Positions 1 through 7,758 of a stretch of 64,000 nucleotides of DNA are shown piece after piece. Both the position numbers and the translations under genes were made by a program. Source of the DNA: Bacteroidota bacterium. GTDB taxonomy: Bacteria > Bacteroidota > Bacteroidia > NS11-12g > UBA955. The stretch spans positions 28,459-92,458 of the forward strand of contig JAURFW010000008.1 in the NCBI GenBank assembly GCA_030834125.1. Direction: 5' to 3'. Below the pieces are notes generated by a model that worked only from the letters and a program-made list of their open reading frames with translations, did no database searches and had not been told where the DNA came from. The first letter of the stretch is position 1. Each line of letters opens with the position of its first letter.

Positions 1-98
1 TGACCCTGTCTTTCAGGATTACCAGCCTTAAGAGGATTGGATTGGAACCCAATACAAGTAAGCGCTAAAGCAAAAATCAATTTATAATTTACGTTCAT
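1..98 (-). CDS. Truncated exported protein, probably PorV/PorQ-family outer-membrane protein (C-terminus lies beyond the left edge)
   Basis: Reverse complement from ATG at 98 reads MNVNYKLIFALALTCIGFQSNPLKAGNPERQG..., a signal peptide followed by AGNPxRQG, which resembles the mature N-terminus of PorV/PorQ-like proteins. Starts 11 nt after the stop of the upstream T9SS-cargo gene. Confidence 0.55.
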   Translation of the reverse strand, partial: MNVNYKLIFALALTCIGFQSNPLKAGNPERQG

Positions 99-109
99 TT
101 TATTCTTTA

Positions 110-3100
110 TTAATATGTATCTAAATCAACGGCATGCATGATTCCATACCAACGAATTATTTTTTCTCCTAATCTTGGTGCTTTTACATGAATCAAGTAT
201 AAACCACTTGCAATTGGAACATTACTGCTGTTCTTTAAATCCCATTCATAATAGGTTAAATCATCAGCTTTATTAACCGTCCGAATAAGATTTCCGGCCA
301 TATCAAAAATACGAATCTTACACTCTGGAGGTAAGTTTGTGATTTTAACACGGGAGTCAATTGGGCTATTCTCATATTCACTGTATCCGCGATATGGATT
401 TGGAACTATATTTACTAAATCTAAGTTCTTAGTTCCTATTTCATCAGAAATAGAAGGTGCGATAGATGCACCATCAAATTCGTACATAGGACGATCATCA
501 TTTCTATCGTCACCAGTAGCAAAAGTTGTATATGCCTTTTGAACATGAACTTTAAATTTAACCTCTGTAGGAGGAATACCATTGTCCATATTGTACCCTG
601 GGGCTAAATACGTAGGAATCACCCACGTAACTGTAGAAAGTAATCTAATCTTATTTAAGTTAGTAAGTGCAGGTGATGTAAGTGCCGTTTTAAATCGGTC
701 GAAGTTCGCCTCATCAGGACCTAGATATCGCTCACCAGTTATGTTACGTGTTAAACCATGATTTCCAGTACCAAAAATATATAAGAAATGCTTACCACCA
801 ATTGCAGGATAGGATCCATTATCATTATAAACTGTTGACGTAGGATTCCAAATCATATCGCGTCCATTCTCTCCAGTTAAATAACTATCTTCTCCGAAAG
901 CGATTTGCATGCGTTCACCAGTTTCAAGGTTAATTACATAACCTGGGAACCAACTTAAACCTGTGCTTCCAGGTATGTCGTTAAAGTCGATATCCTTTGA
1001 AGCCGCATCGCGCATATTAAACTTCCAAATATCACCCTGATTGCCGTTCTTCACTTCATCGTCTGACATTTCAAGAACTGGACAACGGGTCCATTTAGTT
1101 TTATCTGGAGTAATTACCAATTCAAAGCTATGTAGTTCGGCTAAAGGATTTTGTAAATGCGTAGCATTCCCCGACCATGCAAATCCAAACGTATTTCTAC
1201 CGTTGGCTGCACTGTATTTTTCGCGCGCTGTCAAGCCATAAGGAGCTATACGACCGTTCCAGATTTTTTCATAAGCCTGTCCGGGGTCTAATGGACCTCC
1301 ATTAGTTCCCATAAAGTCATGTATATAACCATCGAAGGTAGCCCCACGACCATTGCTTCCAGAACGAATCCAGTTTAACCATACACTACCAGAAGTTGGA
1401 GTACTTTGAGCATCGTTATCAACTACAGCTGTTAACCATTGCCTTCCGTTATCTTCCCACTCAACAGTCCAGTCTAACAATCCGTTTTGCGGATCAGCTT
1501 CAGCATTTTCAGAAGGATTGTATACCTGATTAATTTCAATGCTTAATCCCCAATCTGCAAGGTTCTCCTTTGTAGAATTATATTCACTCGGAATACCTTG
1601 AACACTCTCAAAAGGCTGTCCTATAGTAGTATCTGAGAATATTGTATCATTACCATTTTTTCCTTTACGTACTAAAATCCAATCAGTATTCCGAGTCATA
1701 GAATCACGCAATCCTATTGAATTAGATGGAGTTCTTTCTCTAAAGATAAGTTCAAAATTATCAGTAGGTACTTTTAATGGATCTACAACTTTAACGTTTA
1801 CAGGTCCAAATCCACCCATGTAGGTAGGCTGGGTAACGAAATTGGTAGCCAAAATCTCTTTTACGGTCTCCTCTGTAAATTCAAGTGACATTCCACCATT
1901 TCCACGACCAGAAATTCTCTTTAATATTGGACCACTGCCATAAGTTGAATTCAACTCTGTACCAAAATTTTCAGATTCAGTTTTATGAGGAGTAGCACGG
2001 TAAACTTGAATATTTCGACGACCGGCTAAGAACTGATTAGGATCAATTTGTAAAGTATCATCTGATAGTACTGCATAACTCAAAATCATGTAGTAGTAGT
2101 TTTTGTAATCCACCAATGATGTATTTGCCGAAGTAGCGAATAAGTCATTTTTGATACTGAAGGTATGTTGAACACCTTTGTCTGCACCATCCACCTTTTC
2201 AACTGGTATCATCTGAGACAATTTAGGATCGAAAACTTTATTTACAATTTGACCACGATTATTTTGGACGTCACATTGAAATAACAATCGAGCCTTGTCA
2301 ATATTATCCAAATCAGAAGTATTTACAGTTGCATCTTTTAATTGATACACCAAGTATCCTTCAAACTTGTAGGTTAACTCTTCATTACTAGCATTTTTAT
2401 ACTTTTCAGTGTAGTTCTCTACCTTAGTCGAATTAGTATTTAAAAACTTCAATACTAATTCCTGTTCTAGTTCTTGCATCTCTACATCTGGAGCATCAGG
2501 TCCGTCCAATATTTTAAAGTTATTATTAAAAAGCGTTTGCGCCTTATCAGAAGCAAGTTTTAATAAATCTAAAGAACCTGTTGCACCACCACTTGTAGTT
2601 CTTGCCCAAACAACACCTACTGTAATTCTTTGAACCTGACCAGGACGCAAAAGGAAAGGACCAGTAGATTGCAAGAAACGACGGTCACCTGGACGATTTC
2701 CTGCCGACTTCTCATCCCAACAACGCCCTGCAAATTCAGGGTCAGTACAACCAGGGAACATGAAACTAGAAACTTCACTTCCACCGAAGCCGTTTCCTCC
2801 CCATGTTACGTTCTGCCCACCTTTCCATTTACCACGTAGATAGTTATAAAATGAGTTGGGATTACCTCTATCTGGGTTTCCATTAATAGGGTTTGCATCA
2901 TTGTTGTAATACATGAAGTGGCTCATTCCCATTTGGTTCCCCGCTGTATCAGTAGGTCCTTCAAAATAGTCAACACCAATTGTTGGTGGGTTTAATCCAT
3001 ATCCGAGTACACCCTCGTCATCATCGTCACCATTGTAACAAAAACCTAAACTTCTGCCTACATCACAACCCACATAGTCATCGGCATAATTACCTAAATC

Positions 3101-4000
3101 GGCATCTACCCATTGACCCATGTAACAATCATTAAGAGTTGTAAAACCGCGGTTAATGATTTTTGTTGAATAGAAAGTCATGTTGTTAACTTCATCATTT
3201 GTAGCAAATGCAAACGCAGTGGTTTGACACTCTACACCAATTGGCTGTCCAGAACTTTCGGAGTGAATATTTCCTTTATCGTTGTATACCCACCAAATGA
3301 ACATGTCTGGTTGACGATTTACACCGTTTTCAGCATTAGGACGACGCTCGTCTAATACGGGATGTTCTCCATCAAACGGATTATAAATTCCATCGGGAAC
3401 TATTTCTTTATATGGCGCTAGGTAGTTTGCCTCTGGTCCAAGTCCTACAGAACGATTACTTCCAGCAGGCCAATCTCTAATTCCAATACTTTGGGTTAAA
3501 AATTTAGATTCTTCAAACTCCTCTAATTCATCGCGTGTAACCTTCCACATACGGTCATAAGATTCACAACGCAACGGCTCCGTTGCAGCGGTTGTGGTAT
3601 CCAATGGACCAGGCCAAAAGTCAGAACCAAACTGACGATAAGTCATTGCTGCAAGCTTTAAGTTTCCACCATTATCTTTTCCTCCAATCCAAATCGCACC
3701 CGCAAAAAGAGAATGCTTTCTAACTGCGTTTGGATCATTGATTTTTGGGATTTCATATTTAGGATTATTTAGATCCCACCACATATCTCCTCCGTTCAAC
3801 AACTTTGTTCTTACATTGTTGATATCTAAGTCTACCGACTGTGAAGCAGGGTTACAAGTGCTTGCAAATGCACCGGCTCTTTTGTTCACGGTATTAGATT
3901 TCGAAGAACGTCCTTGCACATTAACTACAGGACGTGCTGCCGCCATAGAGACCAAGGCGATACCAGCAGCTAATATTCCGAATTTTCTCGTCATTTTCAT
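110..4000 (-). CDS. Large secreted protein with T9SS type A-like C-terminal sorting domain
   Basis: 1296 aa ORF with signal peptide. C-terminus VPNPYRGYSEYENS...KIRIFDMAGNLIRTV...WDLKNSSNVPIASGLYLIHV...GEKIIRWYGIMHAVDLDTY has the FlgD-Ig/T9SS CTD pattern. Confidence 0.85.
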   Translation of the reverse strand: MKMTRKFGILAAGIALVSMAAARPVVNVQGRSSKSNTVNKRAGAFASTCNPASQSVDLDINNVRTKLLNGGDMWWDLNNPKYEIPKINDPNAVRKHSLFAGAIWIGGKDNGGNLKLAAMTYRQFGSDFWPGPLDTTTAATEPLRCESYDRMWKVTRDELEEFEESKFLTQSIGIRDWPAGSNRSVGLGPEANYLAPYKEIVPDGIYNPFDGEHPVLDERRPNAENGVNRQPDMFIWWVYNDKGNIHSESSGQPIGVECQTTAFAFATNDEVNNMTFYSTKIINRGFTTLNDCYMGQWVDADLGNYADDYVGCDVGRSLGFCYNGDDDDEGVLGYGLNPPTIGVDYFEGPTDTAGNQMGMSHFMYYNNDANPINGNPDRGNPNSFYNYLRGKWKGGQNVTWGGNGFGGSEVSSFMFPGCTDPEFAGRCWDEKSAGNRPGDRRFLQSTGPFLLRPGQVQRITVGVVWARTTSGGATGSLDLLKLASDKAQTLFNNNFKILDGPDAPDVEMQELEQELVLKFLNTNSTKVENYTEKYKNASNEELTYKFEGYLVYQLKDATVNTSDLDNIDKARLLFQCDVQNNRGQIVNKVFDPKLSQMIPVEKVDGADKGVQHTFSIKNDLFATSANTSLVDYKNYYYMILSYAVLSDDTLQIDPNQFLAGRRNIQVYRATPHKTESENFGTELNSTYGSGPILKRISGRGNGGMSLEFTEETVKEILATNFVTQPTYMGGFGPVNVKVVDPLKVPTDNFELIFRERTPSNSIGLRDSMTRNTDWILVRKGKNGNDTIFSDTTIGQPFESVQGIPSEYNSTKENLADWGLSIEINQVYNPSENAEADPQNGLLDWTVEWEDNGRQWLTAVVDNDAQSTPTSGSVWLNWIRSGSNGRGATFDGYIHDFMGTNGGPLDPGQAYEKIWNGRIAPYGLTAREKYSAANGRNTFGFAWSGNATHLQNPLAELHSFELVITPDKTKWTRCPVLEMSDDEVKNGNQGDIWKFNMRDAASKDIDFNDIPGSTGLSWFPGYVINLETGERMQIAFGEDSYLTGENGRDMIWNPTSTVYNDNGSYPAIGGKHFLYIFGTGNHGLTRNITGERYLGPDEANFDRFKTALTSPALTNLNKIRLLSTVTWVIPTYLAPGYNMDNGIPPTEVKFKVHVQKAYTTFATGDDRNDDRPMYEFDGASIAPSISDEIGTKNLDLVNIVPNPYRGYSEYENSPIDSRVKITNLPPECKIRIFDMAGNLIRTVNKADDLTYYEWDLKNSSNVPIASGLYLIHVKAPRLGEKIIRWYGIMHAVDLDTY

Positions 4001-4011
4001 TAATTCAATTT

Positions 4012-7000
4012 TTAGTTTAGACTGAAACGAATTCCTAAACGAATAGTTCTAGGACTATTCCAGTTTCCAGTTTGTGAGTTTAACAATAAGCGATACAAGT
4101 CTGTATAGCTTTGAGCATCTACCTGATTTCTGATTAACAACTGACCTTGAGGAGACGTTAAGAAACCATCATCATTTGGTTGACCAGTGTAAGGGAACAC
4201 ACCAGTAACATTCCAAGTATTCAATAAATTATTAACCCACAGGAATGCCGCAAAACGCAAAGGGTTCTTTGAATCTCCACGATTTAGCTGGAAGGACTTT
4301 GTTAAGTTGAAATCAAAATTATACTGCCATGGTAAGCGCGCGCCAAAAGGAACACCCTTAATCTGTGCACGGTCAACAGCACCTATTTGTACGGGTCTTA
4401 CTGTAGGAGTATAAGGACCACCACTGTAGGTATTTGCAATAACGTTGATACTTGTATTTTTCAAAATCTCTTTTCCAAACAAAATTGGTCCAGTATATAG
4501 GTTTCTACGATTTCTATCGCGTCCACCTGCCCAAGCCCAAGTTGCAGACAACTTAATATTGTGGCGTATATCTAAATCACCCAAAGGAATTACAGTTCTT
4601 AAATTTGGTTGATTTGAAGCAATTAATGCGGCCTGAGAGTTGATATTAGATCCTGTACCATCAGCAAACTGCAACATATAACTTGCAGATAAAGTCATTG
4701 GTCCAATATCTCTCATAATAAAGTTACCGCGGAAACCAGTAATTGTAGCAAAATCAATGTTTCTATATGTAGAATAAGTTACAGGGTAACCTTGGTTGAT
4801 TTGATACAATCCAAAGTCGTTTCTTATTTCAGAGTAAGATGCAGCTAATTCTAAACCTTTATCATTTCTTCTACCGAAGATTTGTTTAAATCCTACTTCA
4901 TAGTCTGTTTTCAAACGTGAGTTCAACGAACCATTTGCTAAAGTAGATCCTTGTCTAAATTTCAAAAAGTATACATCATCAATTGAAACGAATGATGCTC
5001 CTGCATTTGGACGTTGTGCTAACACATCATAACTAACATAGAATGACTTTCTCTTATCTAATGGGAATGAAAACCACACACGAGGTAATAAATTCACTAT
5101 GGGAGTGTAGTCCATGAAGGTAGTTTCGGTTACCTCTTGAGTATCTGTTCTGTATAAATACGGTGCAATACGACCATTTACAGTTTTATTGGCTAAAAAT
5201 TCAGAGTTTCTTTGCTCTGATCCATCCGCATTAAACCATTTATCGCCCATTCTGTAACCCACAATTTGGGTTGGAGATTCCATATCATTCACATAAACTT
5301 TTGCGTCATCTGCAATATTTGATGGATGATTAATTGGTAATCCATTAATCTCACCAACTTCAGCAGCAGTTTTTATTGGGTAGAGTGAATAAGGGTCAGC
5401 AAGGACAATTTGGTTCGCATCGTAACGTTCCATACGAAGACCTAAACGGAAGATCAAATCTTTGAATTGGAACTGGTCTTGTAACCAAGCCGCAATGTAA
5501 ATAGGTTGGAAAGCACCAATTGTGCGCTTATCTGGGTCATTCAAGAACTCAGAAATAGAAGGCTTACCTCTTACTTTGTTACCTAAATGATCATAACCAA
5601 AGTAGTTTACGTAACCATTACCATTGTTTAATAACTCGTTTGCATTAAACATGTCTAAACTGAAATCACCTGGTTTATAGCTATTGATATCAACAAACGT
5701 TCTTTCATTGATGGTGTTACCATAAACATCTGTTGAACCTTGTGATATTAGTTTGTTTCTGAAGTTACGGTCAAATGTTGACTGCTCTTCGTAATTAACA
5801 AGTCTATTGTAACGAATTGTATCTGTGAATACACCATTTTCGTCATAAGATAAAATTGGATTCTCAATATCTAACTCGCCAATATGTTTATTCATTAACT
5901 GACGCATAAGGATCCATAATCCATTTGCATTTAAACCATATCCTCTATTAATATTTTGCTCATAATAGAAACCAGCCTGTAAATCATGAGGTGTACGTTG
6001 TCTTCCACCTTGTGTTTTGGGCTTAACTTGCATCTGACCTAAAGCAAATAATGAATACTTCTCTGTTTCATTTTTACTCCAACCACCAACGGTTGTACCC
6101 GGAGTTGACCATAAAGAATAAACATTCACAGGGTTATATCCATTTAATAGACCTTGGCTCGCTAAAACCGTAAGTGGATTTGTAATTCTGCCACCTCTTT
6201 CGGTGAAGTAATCATAGACATTTGAAGTGTAGCGTGCACGCACTGGATTTAAATCACTTGCCTGATAATCAAGCAACGTGTCCATATAACCTATATGTTC
6301 CCAATAGTTACTTAACTGAACATAGTTTCCAAATTGATCACGAACTACTCTAGGATCTTTATTAGGGTTTTGCTGTGCGTCTGTGTGCGAGTATGCAAAT
6401 ACCTCTGTAGGATATGCAGTAAATGAACCAACATAACCATAATTGAAGATATCATCTAAGTGATCTGCGTTTCTAGAGAATGACCAAGCATTTTGATATT
6501 CTGCACGGACAGTGTAAAAGGCAGATTTGATGTTACTTCTCTTGTCAACTTTAAAGTTTTGACGGAACTGCAAATATGATCTAAACGTATGATTATCTAT
6601 ACGCGCAGTATTTGCAAAGTTTAATATATTATTTGTAACACTTCTTCCACCACCGTAGAAATAAGAAGCAAAGGCAGTTAACGAAATGTACTTATTTGGG
6701 TTAAACTCTAACTTGCCAATGAAGTTTGAATTGTATTGTTGAGAATTTGGACGTGCTGCGATATTTTGGAAATCTGACTCCCTCAAGAAAGAAGCGCTAT
6801 GTACAAAACCATTTGGAGTAATAGTTAATGGATTTTGTTCAATCTCAGCCATTTTCTCATCGTTCAATACATAAACCCCTGTGCGAGTTGGTGATGGATC
6901 ATAATAATAACCCACGTTACCATTCAAGGTAAAACCTAATTTAACTAGTTTGTCAGTAGTTCCGTTGGCATTCTTTTTCTCTTGAATCCAAAGTGGCCCG

Positions 7001-7758
7001 GAGATGAAACCCTCTAGAGTACTGTACCCATAAGGATCTAAAAACTGCGAAGTTATTCCCTCAAAAATTGAAATGTATTTATCAGTTGCACTTTTGGAGG
7101 TGTAGGAGAATGCACCTCCTGTTAAATCACCATACATCGCAGGAATACCTCCAATATTTACTGATAACTGGTCAACCCCTAATGATGGAATTGCTCCTCC
7201 ACCAATTACACGCATACCATCAACGAAAGTACCATTACCATCAGAACGAGTTCCGCGAACGGAAATACCTTGACGGGATTCAATAATTGCAGAGTTGGTA
7301 GATGTCAATGCTCCCATTCCACGTCTACCACTGTTAATCATTTGCTTACCATCAATGGAAGCCTCATTTTGCTCCATTTGAATAACCTTCTTCGATGCCT
7401 TGGTAGAAATAACCACCGCAGTCATTGAAGTTGTCATATTTAGAGATTTAGGTTCATTCAAACCAGCACGAAGTGTTAAATCTGTAATTTTCTGAGTTGA
7501 AAATCCATCTTTAGAAGCTTCCATGTCATAGGTGCCTGGATTTAATGTTTGGAAAATTACATTACCATCCATGTCAGTGGTATCATAGGCTTTTTTGATA
7601 CCATTCAAATACATGGCAACCATTACTCCACTCATACGTTTACCATCACCATCTAGGGCGGTCACACGAAAATCCGCGAAGTTGGTTTGTGCGAATGACA
7701 CTGCAGATACTATTCCTGCAATTGCCAACAGCGACCATTTAAGTAGTTTATCTCTCAT
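4012..7758 (-). CDS. TonB-dependent receptor with N-terminal carboxypeptidase-regulatory-like domain
   Basis: Signal peptide, beta-sandwich repeat (DFRVTALDGDGKRMSGVMVAMYLNG...TYDMEASKDGFSTQ), plug region (GISVRGTRSDGNGTFVDGMRV), long barrel ending ...TIRLGIRFSLN. Confidence 0.9.
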   Translation of the reverse strand: MRDKLLKWSLLAIAGIVSAVSFAQTNFADFRVTALDGDGKRMSGVMVAMYLNGIKKAYDTTDMDGNVIFQTLNPGTYDMEASKDGFSTQKITDLTLRAGLNEPKSLNMTTSMTAVVISTKASKKVIQMEQNEASIDGKQMINSGRRGMGALTSTNSAIIESRQGISVRGTRSDGNGTFVDGMRVIGGGAIPSLGVDQLSVNIGGIPAMYGDLTGGAFSYTSKSATDKYISIFEGITSQFLDPYGYSTLEGFISGPLWIQEKKNANGTTDKLVKLGFTLNGNVGYYYDPSPTRTGVYVLNDEKMAEIEQNPLTITPNGFVHSASFLRESDFQNIAARPNSQQYNSNFIGKLEFNPNKYISLTAFASYFYGGGRSVTNNILNFANTARIDNHTFRSYLQFRQNFKVDKRSNIKSAFYTVRAEYQNAWSFSRNADHLDDIFNYGYVGSFTAYPTEVFAYSHTDAQQNPNKDPRVVRDQFGNYVQLSNYWEHIGYMDTLLDYQASDLNPVRARYTSNVYDYFTERGGRITNPLTVLASQGLLNGYNPVNVYSLWSTPGTTVGGWSKNETEKYSLFALGQMQVKPKTQGGRQRTPHDLQAGFYYEQNINRGYGLNANGLWILMRQLMNKHIGELDIENPILSYDENGVFTDTIRYNRLVNYEEQSTFDRNFRNKLISQGSTDVYGNTINERTFVDINSYKPGDFSLDMFNANELLNNGNGYVNYFGYDHLGNKVRGKPSISEFLNDPDKRTIGAFQPIYIAAWLQDQFQFKDLIFRLGLRMERYDANQIVLADPYSLYPIKTAAEVGEINGLPINHPSNIADDAKVYVNDMESPTQIVGYRMGDKWFNADGSEQRNSEFLANKTVNGRIAPYLYRTDTQEVTETTFMDYTPIVNLLPRVWFSFPLDKRKSFYVSYDVLAQRPNAGASFVSIDDVYFLKFRQGSTLANGSLNSRLKTDYEVGFKQIFGRRNDKGLELAASYSEIRNDFGLYQINQGYPVTYSTYRNIDFATITGFRGNFIMRDIGPMTLSASYMLQFADGTGSNINSQAALIASNQPNLRTVIPLGDLDIRHNIKLSATWAWAGGRDRNRRNLYTGPILFGKEILKNTSINVIANTYSGGPYTPTVRPVQIGAVDRAQIKGVPFGARLPWQYNFDFNLTKSFQLNRGDSKNPLRFAAFLWVNNLLNTWNVTGVFPYTGQPNDDGFLTSPQGQLLIRNQVDAQSYTDLYRLLLNSQTGNWNSPRTIRLGIRFSLN

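Follow-up and report, generated by a model that had tools for sequence, protein, structure and literature searches.

We analysed a 64,000-nucleotide stretch of a Bacteroidota bacterium genome of 2.3 Mb, here called the window (contig JAURFW010000008.1, positions 28,459 to 92,458; G000:C69:28459-92458 in our numbering). The close relatives of this organism are mostly uncultured aquatic Bacteroidota known as metagenome-assembled genomes. At the left end of the window three genes, referred to below as the trio, follow each other on the minus strand and encode a TonB-dependent receptor, a large protein with a predicted C-terminal domain (CTD) of the type IX secretion system (T9SS), which we call the cargo, and the beginning of a PorV/PorQ-family barrel. 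The open reading frames (ORFs) and the junctions, which we read directly, agree with the first-pass annotation of the sequence: the receptor (7758..4012) is followed after 11 nt by the 1296-residue cargo (4000..110), and after another 11 nt by a third ORF that starts at position 98 and is cut by the window edge. Using the flanking contig we completed this ORF (L002:10098..8986, equal to window 98..-1014), which encodes a protein of 370 residues with a signal peptide followed by the motif AGNPERQG. A strong intrinsic terminator with an 11-bp stem and a T8 tail lies at L002:8959-8934, 27 nt past the stop of the barrel gene and before greA, so the transcription unit plausibly ends after the three genes. 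On the other side, the upstream neighbour gene lies 158 nt away from the receptor. The gene order around the trio, with greA and a HIT gene downstream and a phosphoglycerate-dehydrogenase-like gene upstream, is the same in another genus of the family (L045:1866-12781 compared with L002).

4012..7758, minus strand: TonB-dependent receptor, 1248 residues, with signal peptide, carboxypeptidase-regulatory-like N-terminal domain, plug and barrel (ORF; PF13620 above cut-off; weak Plug match; 14-member alignment)
110..4000, minus strand: large T9SS-type surface protein (cargo), 1296 residues (ORF; matches in 56 of 57 relatives; AlphaFold mean pLDDT 84.5 and 86.8 for the two halves)
1898..3868, minus strand: cargo N-terminal half, residues 45-701, conserved beta-rich module (Foldseek best E 4.7e-6, probability 1.00, low overall TM-score)
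113..430, minus strand: predicted cargo CTD, about residues 1191-1296, PorZ-like, with a conserved extra tail ending LDLD-S/T-F/Y (Foldseek; PorZ sequence match; alignment)
1..98, minus strand: 5' end of the PorV/PorQ-family barrel gene, which continues 1014 nt past the window edge (L002:8986-10098; 370 residues) (ORF; NF033709; profile match to 6h3i)

Family assignment of the three proteins

The third gene, which had been likened to PorV/PorQ from its truncated end, is a member of this family. The completed protein scores 114.5 bits against the PorV/PorQ family model NF033709 (cut-off 90), covering model positions 3-324 of 326, and the family was matched by all 33 trio barrels that we scanned. 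A profile of barrel orthologues also matches PorV in the SprA translocon structure 6h3i (E 1e-10); the profile was needed here, as a single-sequence phmmer search of the barrel against the PDB gave no match. The equivalog cut-offs are not reached, with 53.3 bits for PorV (NF033710, cut-off 250), 30.0 for PorQ (cut-off 220) and 28.6 for PorV2 (cut-off 325). The canonical PorV of the window genome is a separate gene adjoining PorU (C67:241072-242166), and is the only protein of this genome found by the Pfam PorV model PF19572, which misses the trio barrel. A third family member lies on C73 with a cytidylate-kinase-like gene next door, and from this PorQ-like neighbourhood it is presumably PorQ. 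We considered whether the trio barrel might be a displaced canonical PorV or PorQ and rejected this, as both are found elsewhere in the genome, PorQ on the presumption just given. Because the scores fall below the equivalogs, and because of the canonical PorV and the PorQ-like member on C73, the barrel is on sequence criteria a separate, dedicated PorV/PorQ-family paralogue. For barrel and cargo alike, no PorP/SprF-family barrel or type B CTD appeared among the matches at E up to 10.

The T9SS-type CTD claimed for the cargo by the first-pass annotation is supported by the predicted fold; the sequence scores fall under the curated cut-offs (TIGR04183, 18.2 against 23 bits; PF18962, 13.9 against 27). 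The best family match of this region by sequence is the C-terminus of PorZ (E 2e-8). With the cargo modelled by AlphaFold as two halves, the best Foldseek match of the C-terminal half is PorZ of Porphyromonas gingivalis (5m11; E 2.4e-6, 25% identity), followed by PorU (3e-3) and the CTDs of NucA (4e-3) and RgpB (0.03). The predicted structure of this half thus has the type A immunoglobulin-like beta-sandwich fold seen in PorZ, PorU and RgpB. A type B CTD was ruled out, with no match to TIGR04131 or CHU_C. With the threshold set at E 10, neither Pfam nor NCBIfam returned a SusD family for the cargo, and a cargo profile gave no matches in the PDB. Paralogues of the cargo N-terminal domain also occur elsewhere, in tandem clusters of about 20 proteins of 550-600 residues on three contigs of one genome (G311; C96, C200 and C232). 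Related stand-alone proteins of about 490-885 residues (L071-L076) have different C-termini, some of them like ordinary T9SS tails.

The carboxypeptidase-like N-terminal domain proposed for the receptor was confirmed by a CarboxypepD_reg match (PF13620) of 37.7 bits, above the cut-off of 32.3. The Plug match of the window protein is weak (14.8 bits, Pfam cut-off 23.9), and an alignment of 14 orthologues has the plug region conserved. No NCBIfam family was matched at E up to 10, so the receptor does not match a SusC/RagA-type model, and a receptor profile searched against the PDB returned essentially matches to the N-terminal domain only.

Conservation and co-divergence of the trio

Of 57 related genomes, 56 contain a match to the cargo, in most of them a single full-length copy, and the sequence is strongly conserved. 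At order level every examined locus of this main cargo (34 of 34, window included) has the receptor upstream and the PorV-like gene downstream in the same order and on the same strand, and we rejected the possibility that the trio is specific to the genus. A profile search over 393 genomes spread over Bacteroidota found cargo matches in 126 of them; these belong to several classes, while most families of the window's own class have none. Complete trios with the same order and strand were present at 47 of 53 loci from other families or classes. The other six comprise four cut by contig or stretch ends (L194, L201, L202 and L204), one with only a receptor fragment at the contig end (L196) and one without partners (L207). 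Conservation of the triplet beyond this genome, on which the first-pass annotation had made its reading depend, is therefore clear, and with 102 complete copies collected (median gaps 29 and 24 nt) a chance arrangement can be excluded.

In some genomes of other classes the trio has been expanded. The first-pass annotation had anticipated neither this nor the likeness of the CTD to that of PorZ, nor the SusCD-like role that we consider possible below. Many proteins of these genomes match the cargo profile only over its last 120 residues, and all 20 loci that we picked by the cargo CTD alone hold trios, one of them with two in tandem. Over most of their length the expanded cargos (742-1282 residues) are homologous to the core cargo, though diverged (profile-profile probability 100%, E 3e-58), and 21 of them gave no Pfam match other than FlgD_ig. 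Positions compared by eye in six genomes show that 40 of 45 cargo-type CTD hits are followed at once, on their own strand, by a PorV-family gene; in three of those six genomes this holds for none of the ordinary TIGR04183 hits in a listing of roughly 150 top-scoring ones. Three genomes have 21-28 PorV-family genes each, whereas the window genome and the other Bacteroidia genomes checked have 3-5. The trio is also linked to T9SS-bearing genomes, SprA being present in all 126 genomes with a cargo match and in 320 of 393 overall, counts that are uncorrected for genome kinship.

Comparing paralogous trios of the same genome, we found correlated pairwise distances (r 0.76-0.93) for the receptor, the cargo body, the CTD and the barrel, with at most 1 of 2000 within-genome permutations reaching the observed correlation. 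This co-divergence supports a dedicated functional unit, and by sequence comparison it is well supported that the three genes form one such unit whose paralogous copies diverged together. The first-pass annotation had suggested a dedicated export or surface-complex unit; the unit stands, and a physical complex between its products can be proposed. The cargos carry two kinds of tail, a long one with a conserved LDxF-like end in the core copies and a short one ending GKFAIIK in the expanded copies. In the barrel tree the partners of long-tail cargos fall on one side of a supported branch (SH-aLRT 99), the tail label needing a single change, and in several genomes that hold both kinds the tail type still matches the barrel clade. 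The match fits a co-inherited specificity; linkage within an old duplication would look alike, and it is not independent proof.

A proposed surface complex and its alternatives

PorZ and PorU are T9SS surface proteins that retain their CTD and dock on PorQ and PorV (PMC10202324), and the likeness of the cargo CTD to theirs is our main reason to propose that the cargo is held by its barrel and not cleaved. We hypothesise, with a probability of about 50%, that the trio is an ancient co-inherited outer-membrane module in which a T9SS-exported cargo, held by the barrel through an uncleaved CTD, serves as a SusD-like partner of the receptor. The SprA translocon would carry the cargo to the surface, where the barrel encoded downstream would act as its dedicated partner, taking it at the translocon and keeping it on the surface by binding the uncleaved CTD, on the model of the PorQ-PorZ and PorV-PorU pairs. 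The anchored cargo would sit with the receptor and capture or present ligand for TonB-driven import, in the role that SusD, a lipoprotein, plays for SusC. By analogy, drawn from gene order, fold and neighbourhood, this complex may capture and import an oligosaccharide. The module has multiplied in other classes, with some copies beside glycan-degradation genes, and occurs as a single core copy in the window's order.

The comparison with SusC/SusD is close in several respects. Both combine, in one transcript, a large surface partner and a TonB receptor whose N-terminal domain is carboxypeptidase-like, and both occur as many duplicates per genome, some beside carbohydrate-active enzymes (CAZymes) and sugar regulators. 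In the trio, however, the partner is a T9SS CTD protein of 740-1390 residues for which the family scans gave no SusD domain; the receptor, matching no NCBIfam family, does not fit the SusC model; and the third gene encodes a PorV-family barrel that may replace the lipid anchor. It is possible that the trio is an unrecognised counterpart of this glycan-uptake pair. The three genomes richest in PorV-family genes (21-28) contain no SusD of family PF07980, the SusD family searched, and the same family is absent from 71 of 118 genomes of other classes with a cargo match, by a tally made by eye. This absence in PorV-family-rich genomes and in most carriers of other classes suggests that the trio does SusCD-like work there. 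In a bolder form of the proposal, which we hold tentatively and judge somewhat short of an even chance, the trio would be a third kind of TonB-linked uptake complex, with a T9SS-delivered capture protein tethered by its own PorV-type barrel and not by a lipid anchor. It would be the main form of nutrient capture, replacing SusCD, in SusD-poor classes, and the CTD would hold a specificity code that pairs each cargo copy with its barrel.

Other observations bear on an uptake role, some for it and some against. In the flanks of ten expanded trios about 13 genes among 60 are of CAZyme or sulfatase type, whereas 4 were found in a control set of 60 (one-sided p 0.017; with only 11 counted, 0.048), tallies that assume one family per gene and a control inspected in part. 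The flanks include GH2, 3, 5, 9, 13, 16, 94 and other families, as well as LacI and RpiR regulators. The enrichment speaks for an uptake role but is modest and carried by some genomes, and four trio flanks of one genome (G399) are without glycoside hydrolases. The window copy itself has housekeeping neighbours and no adjoining CAZymes, and its genome does encode SusD (5 matches). In favour of the role, Foldseek returned for the N-terminal half of the cargo 35 matches at E up to 1e-3, almost all beta-supersandwich glycoside hydrolases or phosphorylases (GH116, GH15, GH94 and GH65 among the families). These alignments are partial, with overall TM-scores of only 0.2-0.3, and the helical catalytic domain of such enzymes is not apparent in the model; this half may have a binding role. 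Two second cargo copies of the same CTD type, at L052:5926-9789 (1287 residues) and L207:7285-10557 (1090 residues), have no receptor or PorV-like gene nearby; they may share the partner of another trio.

We consider it unlikely that the trio serves export only, with the barrel as a private shuttle from SprA to PorU, the CTD cleaved, the protein attached to lipopolysaccharide (LPS) or released, and the receptor merely co-regulated. Type A CTDs are known to use the PorV shuttle and then PorU (PMC12618676, PMC10202324), and PorU is present in the window genome, adjoining the canonical PorV. However, co-divergence of the receptor with cargo and barrel is no looser than that between these two, and the CTD is nearer to the retained CTD of PorZ than to those of cleaved cargos. 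Less likely still is a role in surface structure or envelope maintenance (an adhesin, a sheath or outer-membrane biogenesis) with the core copy as a housekeeping system. The near-universal, mostly single and strongly conserved core copy with its housekeeping neighbours would agree with this, as would the FadL-type barrels with large surface partners, BamG/BamH, in the Bacteroidota beta-barrel assembly machinery (BAM) (PMC12578637), BamG being weakly matched by 2 of the 33 trio barrels scanned. The receptor nevertheless retains a recognisable plug region, and expanded copies lie partly in sugar-use neighbourhoods with LacI/RpiR regulators. That the genes share a promoter or regulation without any specific partnership is improbable: operon structure by itself would look identical, but all three genes are conserved across classes and duplicated as a unit, and tail type matches barrel clade in genomes holding both types. 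Least probable is a receptor acting in cargo export or release, on the model of Oar of Myxococcus, a long TonB-dependent transporter with an N-terminal extension that the protease PopC needs for its secretion (PMC6434023). The trio likewise joins a single secreted protein to a long receptor whose N-terminal domain is carboxypeptidase-like. However, the cargo bears a T9SS CTD, its partner is of the PorV family and every genome with a cargo match has SprA, so that a translocation route is already there, and M. xanthus is without T9SS.

Relation to known systems and neighbouring genes

The trio also resembles, in part, known T9SS systems. Dedicated PorP/SprF barrels are established for type B CTDs, whereas type A CTDs are stated to all use PorV itself (PMC12618676). 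As in the PorP/SprF systems of Flavobacterium johnsoniae and PorP-like ones (PMC12618676, PMC9143113), a dedicated FadL-like barrel is encoded directly downstream of the T9SS substrate and would carry it and help to retain it on the surface. The trio differs in its PorV/PorQ-family barrel, its type A, PorZ-fold CTD and the TonB receptor in the unit. With PorQ-PorZ and PorV-PorU it would share a surface protein that keeps its CTD and docks on a barrel of the PorV/PorQ type (PMC10202324). The CTD of PorZ is the one most like that of the cargo, and porU and porV are neighbours in the window genome too. Unlike in those pairs, the cargo is neither PorU nor PorZ, no sortase or A-LPS role is suggested, and a receptor is added. 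Another case of FadL-like barrels with surface proteins held on them is the BAM complex of Bacteroidota (PMC12578637).

In a search of open-access papers we found none that describes the trio. In the xylan locus of Rhodothermus marinus, Rmar_1070-1072 encode a TonB-dependent receptor, a hypothetical protein with a por secretion sorting domain and a further hypothetical protein, and adjoin the xylanase Xyn10A, a GH43 enzyme and a LacI regulator (PMC6987092). This locus differs in also carrying a separate SusCD pair (PMC6987092). Matched by gene order and not by a barrel-family score, Rmar_1070-1072 are possibly a published, unrecognised trio in a culturable thermophile. If our proposal is correct, many surface proteins that now have no annotation would gain a function, and so would the PorV-family genes whose rise to 21-28 per genome in some lineages is otherwise unexplained. 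The notion of a single PorV for all type A-like CTDs would then need qualifying, and for the uptake of large substrates by SusD-poor Bacteroidota there would be an explanation open to test. What governs the pairing of cargo and shuttle becomes testable over many natural pairs.

About 3.2-4.8 kb to the left of window position 1 (L002:5187-6825), we also noted a gene for an extracytoplasmic function (ECF) sigma factor overlapping that of a 368-residue protein. In the latter a single transmembrane stretch is apparent, and where an anti-sigma domain would be expected there is no obvious one but a type B (CHU_C) CTD; the two are possibly a T9SS-linked signalling pair. Directly downstream of them lies the partial gene of a giant PKD-like surface protein of more than 1725 residues (L002:2-5176).

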